Positions 33,283-63,460 of a stretch of DNA of 64,000 nt are shown here, one piece after another. The number at the start of each line of letters is the position of its first letter. The first letter of the stretch is position 1. A model generated the notes under the pieces. That model was not told where the DNA came from and searched no databases. It saw only the letters and a program-made list of their open reading frames with translations. This stretch comes from Halodesulfovibrio aestuarii DSM 17919 = ATCC 29578 (GTDB lineage: Bacteria; Desulfobacterota; Desulfovibrionia; Desulfovibrionales; Desulfovibrionaceae). The stretch covers positions 62,001 through 126,000 of the forward strand of contig NZ_ARQF01000019.1 in NCBI RefSeq assembly GCF_000384815.1. The letters run 5' to 3'. The position numbers and the translations under genes were made by a program.

Positions 33283-33460
33283 GAAGACAGCAGGAGAGAC
33301 CCCCTTTTTTCCCCAAAAAAGGAACGGCGCCGAAGATGTAACTCTTTCAGGCAAAAGGACTGCTGCTCGGACGAGCCTCTGGAGAGACTCCGCAAGGAGC
33401 ACCGAAGGAGCAAACTGCTTTCCCAGTGCAGTGAAACTCTCAGGTAAAAGGACAGAGTGG
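33283..33460 (+). ncRNA. Tandem glycine riboswitch (two aptamers), no gene directly downstream
   Basis: Two consecutive copies of the gcvT-type aptamer are visible. Aptamer 1 has GGAGAGACC, GGCGCCGAAGA, CTCTTTCAGGCAAAAGGAC, with P1 closing as CAGCAG/CTGCTG (33288-33293 with 33360-33365). After a linker of about ten bases, aptamer 2 has GGAGAGACTCC, CACCGAAGGAGCAA and CTCTCAGGTAAAAGGACAGAG. The 3' strand of its P1 (GGACAGAG) can pair instead with CCTCTGTCC at 33490-33499. Such RNAs sense glycine cooperatively and usually control gcv genes or glycine/alanine carriers. Here none follows. Confidence 0.93.
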
Positions 33461-33527
33461 ACCCATAAAACCAATATTGCGTTTTGCCGTCCTCTGTCCC
33501 ACTTTTCAGTCACACCGTTTCCATTTA

Positions 33528-53716: not shown

Positions 53717-53879
53717 ACAGTCAAGATGTTCTTAGGTTCCCTTCACTAAGTCACTTTAAATAAATGCTAGAGACGCCGCGGCCTGACACAATGAAAAAAA
53801 CATGGGAACCCTTTTCAACTGCTCACAGTGCAACAAATCTGTTGGACAGCAAAAAATCTCCAATTACCGGGAGGCGGAA

Positions 53880-54263
53880 ATGGCGGAAATGACTCCTGCT
53901 GAGATGCTTTTACTCATAAGTTCAATAGCGTTACTTCCTATTGCTCTTGCTTATGGACTTTACCCGAAATTTACGATGAGAAAACTCTATAATATTGAAG
54001 TTCGCTCAACAAATCTGGCAAATATTACCCGTTCCATTATGGGACTCCACCTTGCTTTCATCATTTACTGGATGCTCGCATTTTGGGGTTTTATAGGCGC
54101 AAAAGCAGCACTTGGTTCACTTACAACATTTATGTTTGGTCTGGCCTTCGGACGCACTGTGAGTTGGTGCGTTGACGGTAAGGCAAACCTTTGGCTGGTA
54201 CTATACCTGATACTTGAAGTCTTTTTGGGCTGCACAGGGCTATTTCTTGTTCTTACTATGTAA
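53880..54263 (+). CDS. DUF4345-family small membrane protein
   Basis: The 127-residue protein has four predicted spans. GLHLAFIIYWMLAFWG and FGLAFGRTVSWCVDGKANLW match the DUF4345 pattern. I start at ATG 53880 (gggaggcgg just before); an in-frame ATG at 53802 would add a CxxC-containing leader (FNCSQCNK) but has no ribosome site. A Fur-like box lies upstream, which suggests iron-dependent expression. Its function is unknown. Confidence 0.75.
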   Translation: MAEMTPAEMLLLISSIALLPIALAYGLYPKFTMRKLYNIEVRSTNLANITRSIMGLHLAFIIYWMLAFWGFIGAKAALGSLTTFMFGLAFGRTVSWCVDGKANLWLVLYLILEVFLGCTGLFLVLTM

Positions 54264-56695: not shown

Positions 56696-56747
56696 ACGGA
56701 ATTCCGTTACAAAGCAACGAACATCCGTTTTAATCACGGAATTCCGT
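56696..56747 (+). promoter_or_regulatory. Two palindromic upstream activator sites, 40 bp apart
   Basis: ACGGAATTCCGT occurs as a perfect twelve-base palindrome at 56696-56707 and again at 56736-56747; the first extends to AACGGAATTCCGTT. Their centres are 40 bp apart, close to four helical turns. They lie about 65-115 bp upstream of the sigma-54 promoter, the usual place for enhancer-binding sites. The regulator is probably the neighbouring activator, which is an inference. Confidence 0.7.
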
Positions 56748-56811: not shown

Positions 56812-56827
56812 TGGCTCACCTCTTGCT
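56812..56827 (+). promoter_or_regulatory. Sigma-54 (-24/-12) promoter
   Basis: TGGCTCACCTCTTGCT matches TGGCAC-N5-TTGCW with one mismatch in the -24 element, and GG and GC are spaced by ten bases as required. It lies about 120 nt before the CooS-like gene. Confidence 0.7.
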
Positions 56828-56945: not shown

Positions 56946-58640
56946 ATGAAAACAGAGAAACAGACTCATAACAATCACGACAGCAATTCTACGGACAATA
57001 TTGCTGCCGACAAACTGCTTCGTTCTGCTGCAAAAGACGTTGCCGCCCATGAAGCACGTATGCGAGAGATTATTCTTACCCTGAAAAAAGCAGCGGAAGG
57101 AGATACTGATCTTTCTATTGTGGGTGAAAGAAAACTGAGAAGTATTGCAGCTCATTTTGACATCAGCACCAAGAATAAAGAAACAAACACAATTGCTGCG
57201 GAACTCGCAGACAAGCTGCTTGATGACATCAGCCGCACTGAGCCTGGTCTCTGCTCCACTCTTAGTGTCGTCGCCCCGCCTGAACGAATCCAGACATGGA
57301 AACAACTTGACCTGCTGCCTGTCAGTTCCTCCTTCGAAGTGTCCAGCGCTCTGAAGCAAACATCAGACGAAAGCCTGAATGATTGGCAAAAAAAAATGAA
57401 TACAACCTTCCGGCTCGGGGCCGCCTTTTTACTCAACTGCACCGCAGGTAGTTCTCTAGCTACTGACTGCCTTTGCGGTACTGCAGAACATACTACTACG
57501 AAGGTTTATCTCGAATCGTTACATGCAGACACCGTGAACATTGCATTATACGAACATATCCCAACGCTTGCTGCTGCCGTATGTAATGCGACCCAAAACA
57601 AAAGATTTACTGCAATGGCTAACGAGGCAGGCGCGACTGGAATCCAAGTGTATGAGATCCGCAGTTCAGATAAGCCCTCCACAGATACCGTTGATAACGT
57701 ATTTCGACTCGCTACGACTAATGGGGTTGGTCTCGCTCTCGAAACAGGTGCAATTGATGTATTGTTAGCTGATACACAAAAAGTTCTGCCTAAAATTGCA
57801 AGTGTTGCCGCCTTCAATAAAACCGTCATCGTGACAACAAACAAATCTAGCCATCTCGCCGGGGCTGAATTTATTGGCACAGGCAATGAAGTTCAGACAC
57901 TTGCAGAAAACATCGTCACGCGTGCTATTGAAAGCTTCAAAAACCGTCGTGATGTCAAAAGGACACTCCCCGGCAAAGACGTTACAGCTCAAGTTGGCTT
58001 CAGCCTTGATACTATAGACAGACATTACGGCTGTCTTGACCGTATCGCATCTGCTTTAATTGATGGAAAAATCAAAGGCATCGTCAGCCTTTTCGGCAGT
58101 ACTCCAACCGACGCTGACTCAACACAACATCTTGCAGTGCTCATTAATACTTTGCTTGAGAATAACATCCTGATCTTCGCCAATGGTTACCCGGCGTTCT
58201 CTTTGGCAACTCAGGGTTTCTGCTCCAGCAAAGCACGGGAAAAATGCGGTGAGATGCTGCAGCTTTTCCTTAATACAAACATGCCGCCTGTATGGCATTT
58301 CGGAGAATGCACTGATAATGCACAGCCATTAGCAACATTTAGAGAAGTTGCTAAATATGCTGGCCATAAAATGAAAGACCTTCCTTTTGCTGCTGTCATT
58401 CCAGAATGGTCCGAAGCCGAAGGTCTTGGGGCAACACTCGCATTCCGTGTATCCGGCTTTGACACCTATCATTGTACCCCTCCTTCACTACAGCAGTCCA
58501 AAAAGATTCAGGATTTTCTGTATAATGGTACACAAGATCAGCTCGGCTCATCCATGCATGTGGCTCCTAACCCTAACGACCTTGCTGAAATGATTATTTC
58601 TGACTTTAACAACGCAAGATCGGAGCTTTGCTGGCGCTAG
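56946..58640 (+). CDS. CooS-like protein lacking most metal-cluster ligands (CODH pseudoenzyme)
   Basis: The 564-residue protein aligns along its length with anaerobic Ni-CO dehydrogenase catalytic subunits, for example LPVSSSFEVSSALKQT, ATDCLCGTAE, ADTVNIALYEHIPTL and GATGIQVYEI. It lacks the N-terminal B/D-cluster cysteines altogether. Of the C-cluster ligands of CODH II, His 261 and Cys 526 correspond to His 204 and Cys 455, but Cys 295, 333, 446 and 476 are replaced by Ser 240, Lys 279, Thr 386 and Tyr 415. So no C-cluster should form and the protein should not oxidise CO. The frame is intact, so it is probably kept for another role. It is driven by an apparent sigma-54 promoter with two upstream palindromes, next to a sigma-54 activator gene. 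Confidence 0.85.
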   Translation: MKTEKQTHNNHDSNSTDNIAADKLLRSAAKDVAAHEARMREIILTLKKAAEGDTDLSIVGERKLRSIAAHFDISTKNKETNTIAAELADKLLDDISRTEPGLCSTLSVVAPPERIQTWKQLDLLPVSSSFEVSSALKQTSDESLNDWQKKMNTTFRLGAAFLLNCTAGSSLATDCLCGTAEHTTTKVYLESLHADTVNIALYEHIPTLAAAVCNATQNKRFTAMANEAGATGIQVYEIRSSDKPSTDTVDNVFRLATTNGVGLALETGAIDVLLADTQKVLPKIASVAAFNKTVIVTTNKSSHLAGAEFIGTGNEVQTLAENIVTRAIESFKNRRDVKRTLPGKDVTAQVGFSLDTIDRHYGCLDRIASALIDGKIKGIVSLFGSTPTDADSTQHLAVLINTLLENNILIFANGYPAFSLATQGFCSSKAREKCGEMLQLFLNTNMPPVWHFGECTDNAQPLATFREVAKYAGHKMKDLPFAAVIPEWSEAEGLGATLAFRVSGFDTYHCTPPSLQQSKKIQDFLYNGTQDQLGSSMHVAPNPNDLAEMIISDFNNARSELCWR

Positions 58641-58851: not shown

Positions 58852-60464
58852 ATGACTGGCAAGCAAAATTTTCACTTTAAAAATATGGAACTTCAATCAC
58901 TTCTTCTGGAAATGGGTGAACAGCGCTCAACGAGTTCACTATTTCGCCTTATTGTTAACCGGCTGTTCCAGTTTGATGAGGTGTCACTCGTACGCATATG
59001 GCTCGTTAAAAAAGGCGACATATGCTCATCTTGCCTAATGCTCAAAGAATGTCAGCAAAGTCATAGATGCTTGCATCTCGTAGCCAGTGCAGGTCGGTCT
59101 GTCGTAAACAAAGATGAAGACTGGTCACGTCTTGACGGAAAATTTAGTAGATTTCCTATGGGCTGTAGAAAGGTGGGCCACATTGCCGCGTCCGGCCAAC
59201 CTGTAATTGTTAAATCCGTCCCGGAAGACTCCAAGTGGATTATTGACAAGGGATGGGCAAAGCGAGAAGGAATAAATGGTTTTGCAGGTCACCCCATGCA
59301 ATTCCATGGTGAGGTACTTGGAGTACTGGCTGTATTTACCAAGACACAAATAACCCAGCCGGTTCTCAATGAGCTGAACATCATTACAAACCATTCAGCC
59401 ACCGCGCTTGCTAACGCCAGAGCCTTTGAAAAAATTGAGGAACTCACCAAGCAGCTTAAGAATGAAAACAAATACTTACGTGAAGAGCTGTCTGAAGTAA
59501 GCTTACATGGCGAATTTGTTGGACATAGTGCAGCGTTACAAAGAATCATTCAACAAATCGACCTTGTTGCCCCGACAGAGGCAAACGTTCTCATTCAGGG
59601 TGAGTCTGGAACAGGAAAAGAGCTAGTAGCTAGAGAACTGCATCGAAGAAGTAATAGAAGTTCAAAACCGCTTATTAAAGTTAACTGCGCATCAATTCCT
59701 AAAGAACTCTTTGCCAGCGAATTTTTTGGACATGCCAAAGGAGCCTTCACTGGAGCGCACACCTACCGTGAAGGTAAATTTGGTGCTGCCAACAATGGCA
59801 CTTTATTTTTGGACGAAGTAGGTGAAATCCCACTCGAATTGCAAGCCCAACTTCTTAGAGTCTTACAAGAAGGAGAATACGAACGGGTCGGTGAAGAAAA
59901 AGTCCGAAAGGTGAATGCCCGCATTATTGCCGCGAGCAACCGTGACTTACTGAAAGAAGTAAAGGCCGATAGATTTCGAGAAGACCTATATTTTCGCTCA
60001 ACGTATTTCCTATCACTGTCCCGCCGCTTCGGGAGCGCAAAGAGGACATTGAGCCTCTGGCTAATCACTTTCTGCAACGTTCACTCATCGGTATGAAACG
60101 TCCTGTCGTTCAATTCTCTCCCGACCAACTCGCAACCCTCAGTGCATACAGCTGGCCGGGCAACATTCGGGAACTGCAAAATATTGTGGAGCGATTTGCG
60201 ATTTCTTCTATCTCAGAGTCCGCACAACTGGATCTTACAGACGGGTTTACGAAAACTTCACCTCAAATTGCTCGCAACTATAATCTAGATGATCAGCCGT
60301 TACTTACAGAAGAAGAAATGGTTCAACTTCAAGTAAAAAATATAGAAAAAGCCTTAAACCGCTGTAATGGAAAGATCTACGGAAAAAACGGAGCAGCGTT
60401 CCTGCTGGGAATGAAACCGACAACTCTCGCAACACGAATAAAAAAAATGAAGATTTCTCGCTAA
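58852..60464 (+). pseudogene. Sigma-54-dependent transcriptional activator (GAF-AAA+-HTH), broken by a frameshift
   Basis: One gene is split over two frames (58852-60096 and 60000-60464). It encodes a GAF domain (about 1-190) with a cysteine cluster CSSCLMLKECQQSHRC (58, 61, 67, 73) that may bind metal or an Fe-S cluster; an AAA+ domain (about 220-450) with GESGTGKE, GAFTGAH and FLDEVGEIP; and a Fis-type helix-turn-helix (NGAAFLLGMKPTTLATRIKKM). After FREDLYFR (about 59996) the frame shifts by one base; the other frame continues correctly as LNVFPITVPPLRERKEDIEPL. A one-base loss is the simplest explanation, either real or a sequencing error. If real, it lacks DNA binding. Confidence 0.88.
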
Positions 60465-60982: not shown

Positions 60983-61264
60983 TTACTTATTTTCAGGCAG
61001 AATAGTTTCTACATCTGTGTGAGGACGAGGAATAACGTGTACGGAAACAACTTCACCAACACGCTGTGCTGCAGCTGCACCTGCGTCAGTTGCTGCTTTA
61101 ACAGCACCAACATCGCCACGAACCATTACGGTTACAAGACCGCTACCGATCATTTCTTTACCAAGAAGGGTAACATTAGCAGCTTTAACCATTGCGTCAC
61201 TTGCTTCGATTGCGCCAACAAGACCTTTAGTTTCAATCATTCCTAATGCATCATTCTTACTCAT
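60983..61264 (-). CDS. Bacterial microcompartment shell protein (BMC domain, PduA/EutM/CutN-like)
   Basis: This 93-residue single-domain BMC-H protein forms hexameric shell tiles. The sequence [26 protein letters not shown] and the [23 protein letters not shown] stretch are diagnostic. A short acidic tail (ETILPENK) follows. It is the last gene of the operon, with the PduL gene 16 nt upstream. The ribosome site ggag lies before ATG 61264. Confidence 0.95.
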
Positions 61265-61280
61265 TGTACACTCCTATAAT

Positions 61281-61934
61281 TTATTGCTTTGTAATTTCAA
61301 CTGTTGATGACGATGTGATACTCATTGCGTTTGCTTCTTCCGTATCAAGATGAAACTCCAGAGCAGAGTCCTTGCTGACCCTGATGGCAACGTTGTGGAA
61401 GATCCCACCACGCACACCGTCTAATTTAATGCTGACAAGCTGACCGTCACGCACACCATATTGTTCTGCATTTACTGGGTGCATATGGATATGCCGCTGA
61501 GCAACTATCAGCCCCTCTTTTGTCTGGACAGATCCTTTCGGACCAATAATTGTAATCCCCGGGGTTCCTTGAAGATCACCGGACATACGTGCCGCAGCTT
61601 TTACTCCAAGTTTAAAAGAGTCCCCTGCGAGAATCTCAACCTGTGTCTTGCTACGAACAGGTCCAAGAACACGTATTTTTTCAATTGCCCCTTTAGGACC
61701 ACAAATGGTCACAACTTCCTTGCAGGCAAACTGTCCCGGCTGTGAAAGTTCCTTTAAAGGAGTCAACTGGTATCCTTCACCAAACAGCGCATTCAAATCA
61801 TCCTGAGAAATATGAATGTGGCGGTTGGAGATGCCTACCCCGATGCCGTTAGGTACAGGAACCGGTACGGGCGTTTTCTGTACAGCTTCTACAGCCTCAA
61901 TTAACAACTTGAGGACATTTTCTAACTCAGCCAC
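61281..61934 (-). CDS. pduL: Phosphate propanoyl/acetyltransferase PduL, microcompartment type
   Basis: The 217-residue enzyme turns acyl-CoA into acyl phosphate inside the microcompartment. Zinc-binding His are in GISNRHIHIS and AQRHIHMHP. The N-terminal MAELENVLKLLIEAVEAVQK is an amphipathic encapsulation peptide. It starts at GTG 61934, 2 nt after the dehydrogenase stop, and shares its transcript. The acyl substrate depends on the pathway and is not readable here. Confidence 0.93.
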   Translation of the reverse strand: MAELENVLKLLIEAVEAVQKTPVPVPVPNGIGVGISNRHIHISQDDLNALFGEGYQLTPLKELSQPGQFACKEVVTICGPKGAIEKIRVLGPVRSKTQVEILAGDSFKLGVKAAARMSGDLQGTPGITIIGPKGSVQTKEGLIVAQRHIHMHPVNAEQYGVRDGQLVSIKLDGVRGGIFHNVAIRVSKDSALEFHLDTEEANAMSITSSSTVEITKQ

Positions 61935-61936
61935 GC

Positions 61937-63460
61937 TTACGCACCTTTTGCCAGAGCCAAAACCAGTGAGGAGGCTAACTGAACGAGCTTTTCGTGTTCC
62001 AAGCTAGATGCGTTCGCCAATACATCATCCAAAGAAGTAGCGCTCGCAGTAGAAGAACCGCATGTGTAGTTATTTAACTCAGGATAGTTAAAGGTTGGAT
62101 CGTCTTCTGCAACAGTGCTGCAGTTTTTCAATCCGTATGCAACCTTTTTGATGTTGATAAGATGCTCAGGAGTAACATTCTCAGAAACAGAACTTCCGCC
62201 CCATGAACCACATCCCAAAGTAAATGCAGGAGCAAGGCCGGTGCTGATCCCAACGCCACCCTGAGTGCTGCCGGTATTAACAAGAATTCGGGAAGCAGGC
62301 TTAACGCTAAACTCACGAACGATATTCTCGTCTTCGGTATGCAGACTCATGGTATGGCCAATACCATTCTGCAGTAATTCAATACTGAGCTTACAAGCCT
62401 CGTGCCAATCTTTTACAGTGTAGAATGCAAGAACAGTTGTAAGCTTTTCAAAAGAGAGAGGGGATCCTGCGCCAACGCCCTGCTGCTCACCAATGAGAAC
62501 TTTAGTATCTGCAGGGATAGCGATACCAGCTGCTTCAGCAATAACCTGTGGGGCTCTGCCTACAAAGCTCGCGTTCATTACATGGCCATTTTTAAACAGA
62601 CATGCGCAAACTTTGTGAGTTTCTTCCGCTGTCATGAAGTATGCGCCGTTCTTTTTGAGCTCTGCAATTACAGCCTCACGGTTGCATTCTTCTACGATAA
62701 TTGACTGCTCAGAAGCACAAATTGTGCCGTAATCGAAGGTCTTACTTGCAATAATATTTTTAACAGCCTGCTGAACATTCGCTGTTTTTTCAATATATGC
62801 CGGAGAGTTACCTGCGCCAACACCAAGAGCCGGCTTACCAGAACTGTATGCAGCCTTAACCATGCCCGGGCCACCAGTCGCAAGAATCATTTTAACATCG
62901 GCGCCCTTCATCAGCTCGTCCGTAGCTGGCATGGAAGGCATGGATACACAGGAAATGATTCCTTGTGGAGCACCTGCAGCAACTGCAGCCTCACACATAA
63001 GGCGTGCAGCTTCGAGTGTACATTTCTTCGCAGCTGGGTGAGGAGCAAATACGATAGCATTACGGGACTTGATAGCTATCATAGCCTTGTAGATGGCAGT
63101 AGATGTAGGGTTTGTAGAAGGAGTAATCCCCATCAAAAGACCTACAGGCTCCGCAATTTCAATAACCCGATTAATCGGATCTTCTTTGATTACACCAACC
63201 GTCTTCATTGACTTAATGAAATCGTACAAGACCTGTGAAGCCAGATGGTTCTTGTATGTTTTACTAGGAACGTTACCGAATCCGGTTTCTTCAACCGCCA
63301 TTCGAGCAAGCTTCACAGCATTAGCTTTCGCAGCCTGCACCATACTGCGTAAAATAGAATCTACTAATTCATCTGTATAAGTAGCAATTTTTTCTGCAGC
63401 GATGCTACCGGCACGAGCTAAATCGCGTGCTTCCTGCACAGATTGTAAATCAAAATCCAT
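61937..63460 (-). CDS. CoA-acylating aldehyde dehydrogenase, microcompartment type
   Basis: The 507-residue NAD- and CoA-dependent enzyme oxidises an aldehyde to acyl-CoA. The catalytic Cys is residue 248 in DYGTICASEQS, the NAD fold has PEPxxxLxGxT-like GLLMGITPSTNPTSTA. A linker then leads to a C-terminal amphipathic helix (LEHEKLVQLASSLVLALAKGA), an encapsulation peptide. A strong ataggag site precedes ATG 63460. The aldehyde could be acetaldehyde, propionaldehyde or a related one. Confidence 0.94.
   Translation of the reverse strand: MDFDLQSVQEARDLARAGSIAAEKIATYTDELVDSILRSMVQAAKANAVKLARMAVEETGFGNVPSKTYKNHLASQVLYDFIKSMKTVGVIKEDPINRVIEIAEPVGLLMGITPSTNPTSTAIYKAMIAIKSRNAIVFAPHPAAKKCTLEAARLMCEAAVAAGAPQGIISCVSMPSMPATDELMKGADVKMILATGGPGMVKAAYSSGKPALGVGAGNSPAYIEKTANVQQAVKNIIASKTFDYGTICASEQSIIVEECNREAVIAELKKNGAYFMTAEETHKVCACLFKNGHVMNASFVGRAPQVIAEAAGIAIPADTKVLIGEQQGVGAGSPLSFEKLTTVLAFYTVKDWHEACKLSIELLQNGIGHTMSLHTEDENIVREFSVKPASRILVNTGSTQGGVGISTGLAPAFTLGCGSWGGSSVSENVTPEHLINIKKVAYGLKNCSTVAEDDPTFNYPELNNYTCGSSTASATSLDDVLANASSLEHEKLVQLASSLVLALAKGA

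Follow-up and report, generated by a model that had tools for sequence, protein, structure and literature searches.

A CO dehydrogenase-like protein of Halodesulfovibrio aestuarii that lacks most metal-cluster ligands and is probably kept as a regulated pseudoenzyme

The gene at 56946-58640 of the window (the whole stretch of 64,000 nucleotides of DNA analysed, from Halodesulfovibrio aestuarii, a marine sulfate reducer) probably encodes a regulated, metal-free pseudo-CO dehydrogenase (pseudo-CODH) with a non-redox role. The frame runs uninterrupted from ATG to stop over 564 codons, and family matches cover almost the entire length of the product, with scores of 250.5 bits against Pfam Prismane and 262.7 bits against NCBIfam TIGR01702, the latter well below the curated cutoff of 478. 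All 36 solved-structure matches at E ≤ 0.001 are named CO dehydrogenase, the best with an E value of 6e-56. These results bear out the original prediction of an intact frame homologous to Ni-CO dehydrogenase. For comparison, TIGR01702 gives 479.8 bits for the intact clade-B-type relative in genome G001 and 683.7 bits for the host genome's other CODH (row L001), which has all aligned ligands present in the 48-row alignment described below; the label "clade E" for this and similar rows was assigned from the residue pattern alone. Two additional Prismane proteins are found in the host genome, both on another contig, one being this CODH and the other a hybrid cluster protein (HCP). A heterodimer of the window protein with the other CODH was set aside, the two being 26% identical and encoded on different contigs. 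HCP (hydroxylamine reductase) has the Prismane family in common with the window protein, but the latter matches no HCP model at E ≤ 0.001, and HCP is encoded separately in this genome (G000:C18:34127, TIGR01703 729.5 bits).

Metal-site and catalytic residues were compared in an alignment of 48 rows, comprising 42 of the clade-B type and 6 other CODHs; L090 is a repeat of L040, L042, L046, and L105 are fragments without the N-terminus, and L089, L097, L098, and L100 were omitted from the row count as repeats of other rows. We take the CODH-II ligands to be His261, Cys295, the cysteine at 333, Cys446, Cys476, and Cys526, as in the original prediction. The Cys295 numbering also appears in the available portions of PMC9311411 and PMC13240472. 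The window protein retains two of the six C-cluster ligands, His204 and Cys455 (Table 1), and of the acid-base pair it retains His93 as His35, with Glu492 in place of Lys563. Conserved stretches flank the ligand positions in the alignments, so the substitutions are not alignment errors, apart from one residue: Thr386, as first proposed, is one position off and should read Ser385, whereas Ser240, Lys279, and Tyr415 were placed correctly, as were the retained His204 and Cys455. Four of five cysteines had been counted as replaced. Four positions are indeed occupied by other residues, but the parent state at 333 is an acid (Asp or Glu) and not Cys, and the window lineage has therefore lost three C-cluster cysteines, not four. 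Because the known cluster ligands are gone, the window protein should not work as a CO dehydrogenase, in keeping with what was originally proposed.

Table 1. Features of the CODH-like locus, in window positions
Feature	Position	Strand	Basis
Cluster-free CODH-like protein, 564 aa	56946..58640	+	Open frame, family profile matches, 48-row alignment
N-terminal remnant; relatives' B/D-cluster segment missing right after	56946..56996	+	Alignment
His204, equivalent to CODH His261, retained	57555..57557	+	48-row alignment
Ser240, replaces Cys295	57663..57665	+	48-row alignment
Lys279 at position 333, where intact clade-B-type rows have Glu/Asp and other aligned CODHs have Cys	57780..57782	+	48-row alignment
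Ser385, replaces Cys446	58098..58100	+	48-row alignment
Tyr415, replaces Cys476	58188..58190	+	48-row alignment
Cys455, equivalent to Cys526, retained; Gly in G007, Ala in G002	58308..58310	+	48-row alignment
Glu492, replaces catalytic Lys563	58419..58421	+	48-row alignment
Activator-site-like palindrome ACGGAATTCCGT, copy 1	56696..56707	.	Exact match
Activator-site-like palindrome ACGGAATTCCGT, copy 2, 40 bases further	56736..56747	.	Exact match
Sigma-54 type promoter TGGCTCACCTCTTGCT	56812..56827	+	Pattern match; aligned similar site in G007
First part of the GAF and sigma-54 activator; frame break near 59996	58852..60096	+	Domain profiles, comparison with G007
Activator C-terminal part, other frame: lid domain; Fis-type HTH below its cutoff	60093..60464	+	Domain profiles, comparison with G007
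Four-cysteine motif in activator GAF part	59023..59070	+	Retained in 16/16 aligned orthologues, window included

Among the clade-B-type rows, 35 of 42 are intact: none of their C-cluster positions is changed, 333 being Glu or Asp, and the lysine is present. The seven altered rows are the window protein and those of G007, G002, G006, G268, G258, and G062. Most of the cysteines are gone in G062, one is changed in G258, and in G268 all six C-cluster columns are the same as in intact rows. The G006 protein retains three C-cluster cysteines and has Glu at the equivalent of His204. The derived residues Tyr202, Ser240, Lys279, and Glu492 are common to the window protein and G007, indicating that much of the loss predates their split. 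At the N-terminus a short leftover of a His-rich tail (MKTEKQTHNNHD) is found in the window protein, and the cluster segment is missing between MKTEKQTHNNHD and the rest. Relatives in three other Halodesulfovibrio genomes (73, 48, and 43% identical to the window protein) lack the same segment, so that four proteins, those of the window, G007, G002, and G006, are without it, the G002 protein having a short unalignable stretch. With the segment absent from three further genomes of the genus, its loss is not a matter of chance or an assembly fault, and the B/D-cluster cysteines, originally described as absent, are missing together with the whole segment.

At E ≤ 1e-70 the family yielded relatives at 24 places in 21 of 288 genomes, the class in 21 of 348, and an even draw of 395 genomes from the phylum in 7, the window genome counted. 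All seven altered genes among the loci examined belong to the Desulfovibrionaceae, the family of the window. A contig scan with the window protein as its sole query gave no relatives; an alignment query of contigs gave 38 loci, of which 17 (L089-L105) were examined, the rest being 19 rows at 25-28% identity and two fragments. Plasmids yielded two records, one annotated as a Ruminococcus cooS (40% identity) and the other distant (25%). In a tree of 27 rows the four segment-less proteins form one branch (support 100/99), and the ten-row group around it (96/98) adds three partly altered and three intact proteins (G250a, G022b, and G251b). The original prediction had called for a search for homologues with the same substitutions, and this small separate branch, in which G007 carries Ser240 and Lys279, is what was found. 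The window protein is nested among proteins of the B-1 pattern, a label given by residue pattern, in a tree made up of these and three other CODHs and not of published clade references. The tree program raised a long-branch flag on G006, G002, G062, G258, and one row of the outgroup, and a composition flag on G002, G062, and the window protein. An activator gene and upstream sites common to six of the seven altered loci give independent support. The three partly decayed Desulfovibrionaceae genes (L036/L059 in G268, L044/L064 in G258, and L045/L065 in G062) have lost different ligand subsets and are possible intermediates. As separate observations on these loci, L052, L057, and L058 (G022, G250, and G251) each have two neighboring clade-B-type CODH genes with a DUF169 gene in between, and at L069 9227-11154 (G247) a clade-B-type CODH is split over two frames.

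The window gene appears to have a switch of its own. The predicted sigma-54 type promoter was borne out by pattern and is accompanied by paired ACGGAATTCCGT sites and an adjoining activator gene. The sites were scored over 500 bases upstream at 20 of the 24 places (G014, G293, G171, and G196 were omitted) with a 14-base consensus, AACGGAATTCCGTT, derived from the window and its relatives themselves. At least one site within three mismatches was present in 18 of the 20 upstream regions, and none was found in those of G002 and G001. Six of the seven altered loci have two to three upstream copies within this limit, a number reached in 0 of 1000 resamplings of each; in G006 the sites lie upstream of a DUF169 gene, which stands between them and the CODH-like gene. 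Weak cases are G251a, G239, and G247, each with a single site that 20 to 45 resamplings in 1000 equalled. In the same six altered loci a sigma-54-like match separates the sites from the gene, by a loose pattern without chance control and with start codons unsure in G258 and G062. The strict sigma-54 pattern has no match upstream of G236, G237, and G239, and the promoter is therefore not established for each intact locus. A wider regulon was rejected: the eight other genomic ACGGAATTCCGT sites at up to one mismatch are all internal to open frames 120 or more codons long, have no sigma-54 match within 400 bases, and fit background, as the reversed control pattern gave 5 sites versus 10. A DUF169 homologue elsewhere in the host genome (67% identical, L132) has no such sites in the retrieved stretch.

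The neighboring activator has GAF, AAA+, lid, and HTH domains, and the spacing of its four cysteines is C-x2-C-x5-C-x5-C; binding of an Fe-S cluster by these cysteines is conjecture. The window copy (58852-60464) has one base fewer than the intact G007 copy near 59996 and is thus split into two frames, a break that could reflect either a genuine recent loss or an error in sequencing. The relatives' neighborhoods, to which the original prediction had also pointed, contain the activator in 16 of 21 retrieved loci, including six of the seven altered ones, and a linked HPP membrane gene in 10 of 14 unaltered and none of the seven altered loci, HPP counts that ignore shared ancestry. At E ≤ 1e-130, four of ten genomes in the genus carry the activator, and none was found in G002. 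Among 16 genomes searched for HPP anywhere, 7 had a match; six of the seven altered genomes had none, and G006 has one elsewhere, of a stronger-scoring kind. A report of HPP and cooS genes with higher expression under nitric oxide (PMC5701242) was set aside, as the available text describes two separate loci in another species. In G002 the CODH-like gene (L054 7210-9388) adjoins iron-siderophore-type ABC transporter genes (Peripla_BP_2, FecCD), with activator and sites absent nearby. Elsewhere in the window we noted a glycine riboswitch aptamer (33369-33465, 66 bits), an upstream DUF4345 protein (53802-54263) with no counterpart in the relatives' retrieved neighborhoods, and, by eye, genes resembling a microcompartment shell protein, a PduL-type phosphotransacylase, and an aldehyde dehydrogenase (60983-63460).

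Codon comparison shows that the window gene is under moderate purifying selection, clearly weaker than that on intact CODHs. Window and G007 are 73% identical in protein, with dN 0.169, dS 0.868, and a dN/dS of 0.195 over 562 codons (bootstrap 0.149-0.250), which is below neutral, and zero stops in either frame over the compared codons. At similar dS (0.76-0.84), two intact clade-B-type CODH pairs gave 0.018 and 0.028 and the adjacent activator gave 0.058 over 386 codons; the ratio of the CODH-like gene is 7-11 times that of the former and 3.4 times that of the latter. Against G001 the window gene gave 0.216 at dS 2.1; pairs of the window with G002, G006, and G022b are saturated. Among six stretches, dN/dS is lowest (0.09) at residues 401-480 and highest (0.44) at 361-400, around the lost Cys446. 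We further scored nine invariant metal or catalytic positions (His261, Cys295, Cys446, Cys476, Cys526, Lys563, His93, and the neighbors His259 and Cys294) versus 111 other sites invariant in intact rows. The window protein retains 3/9 versus 86/111 (p 0.009) and G007 2/9 versus 84/111 (p 0.002). G002 shows a weak preference (2/9 versus 61/111, p 0.08; p 0.04 on a smaller set) and G006 no preferential metal-site loss (5/9 versus 63/111, p 1). The partly altered proteins retain 6/9 versus 107/111 (G268, p 0.009), 7/9 versus 86/111 (G258, p 1), and 5/9 versus 85/111 (G062, p 0.22). At the level of sequence, two of the four proteins without the segment, those of the window and G007, thus clearly show a stripped active site on a retained scaffold. 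With catalytic residues lost and constraint retained, the window protein resembles pseudoenzymes in general, which are likewise members of enzyme families that have lost catalytic residues and stayed conserved.

Because intact CODHs are under clearly stronger selection, the main and serious rival is a slowly decaying relic, in which the gene would drift under weak residual selection after loss of CODH function, with the old regulator still switching it on. This would account for the relaxed dN/dS, yet a ratio clearly below 1 at dS 0.87 and four open frames in four genomes speak against it. The graded losses within one lineage, seen also in G268, G258, and G062, are what decay would leave, but in the window protein and G007 scaffold sites are retained while metal sites go. 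The broken activator frame in the window, the lack of activator and sites in the long-branched G002, and the absence of the linked HPP gene from all altered loci also fit decay, although sites and a promoter-like match persist in six of the seven. On balance we consider decay unlikely.

Under the preferred reading of a regulated pseudo-CODH, the activator would bind the paired palindromes, and its four-cysteine GAF domain would sense a redox or small-molecule signal and switch the CODH-like gene on. The product would be made without Ni or Fe-S clusters and, instead of carrying out redox chemistry, may use the emptied cleft or the conserved C-terminal half to bind a ligand or a partner protein. 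The scaffold, sensor, or ligand-binding function originally proposed stays hypothetical. A more specific proposal, which we regard as doubtful, is that the cluster-free CODH fold has become a regulatory or ligand-sensing protein with rearranged domains, which would signal to the neighboring four-cysteine GAF/sigma-54 activator, or modulate it, while being switched on by that activator. The AlphaFold model of the window protein, built from 18 sequences, has a pLDDT of 85 and a pTM of 0.86; that of an intact relative, from the same 18 sequences, has a pLDDT of 77 and a pTM of 0.77, with the cluster segment below 50. The best solved matches of the window model are CODHs (TM 0.73, rmsd 8.6 over 553 columns), and the intact-relative model gave TM 0.85 and rmsd 3.1 to its best solved match. 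Parts of the window protein are thus predicted to be CODH-like in an arrangement of domains that departs from CODH, which is a lead only, because the models were made without metals and from few sequences.

It is improbable that leftovers in the window protein, either His204 and Cys455 or the conserved Cys426, Cys434, and Cys562, still allow a metal or a reduced cluster to be bound. The latter three are invariant in an alignment of ten rows, but they are also present in cluster-bearing relatives on top of their ligands. G006 retains three C-cluster cysteines, and in CODH-V, by the available text of PMC9311411, an altered ligand set holds another cluster; however, because Cys455 and His204 vary among the four segment-less proteins (Gly in G007 and Ala in G002 for the former, Glu in G006 for the latter), these have no common ligand set at the old site. 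An artefact of alignment or assembly, which the one mis-set ligand position and the frame break in the neighboring gene might suggest, can hardly be the explanation, given the conserved stretches flanking the ligand positions and the same missing segment in three other genomes.

The nearest tree relatives of the window protein are CODHs with the clade-B/B-1 pattern, described in the available text of PMC6344411 (Inoue 2019) as a His-rich N-terminus and Asp/Glu at the second Cys. Many of them have the activator gene and upstream sites, as the window does, and the window protein keeps a short remnant of the His-rich tail; it differs in lacking the B/D-cluster segment, the catalytic Lys, and the linked HPP gene, in having most C-cluster ligands replaced, and in having Lys279 rather than Asp/Glu at 333. 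Clade B has been linked to transporters (PMC13056359, available portions). CODH-V of Carboxydothermus hydrogenoformans (clade D, PMC9311411) is likewise a natural CODH-scaffold protein that is not a CO dehydrogenase, but according to the text available it has one C-cluster cysteine changed to Glu and a hybrid Fe-S-O cluster, whereas in the window protein most ligands are gone. The original statement that CODH-like sequences always bear clusters is partly a survey effect, and CODH-V shows that the cluster itself can be altered. As far as the available parts of these sources go, PMC6344411 defines 24 structural groups, with 21 of 1942 proteins outside them as 'others', lists the three C-terminal C-cluster cysteines as retained in each group (Table 2), and excludes sequences with deletions in the D-, B-, or C-clusters; PMC8776680, PMC13240472, and PMC11338639 filter similarly or more strictly on cluster residues. 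In the open-licence literature, supplements aside, no cluster-free CODH was found described, and the sole match joining pseudoenzyme with carbon monoxide dehydrogenase concerns, in the portion available, a Clostridioides endopeptidase.

The usual view of CODHs is as cluster enzymes, and the pipelines used in surveys demand cluster residues, so that branches of this kind are filtered out. That a branch has shed most cluster residues, yet remains under selection and behind a sigma-54 switch of its own, suggests that the protein shell can be worth keeping in itself. The graded series of intact, partly decayed, and cluster-free proteins in one bacterial family may reveal the order of loss, and the features that survive in the stripped relatives could offer a route to the role of clade-B CODHs.
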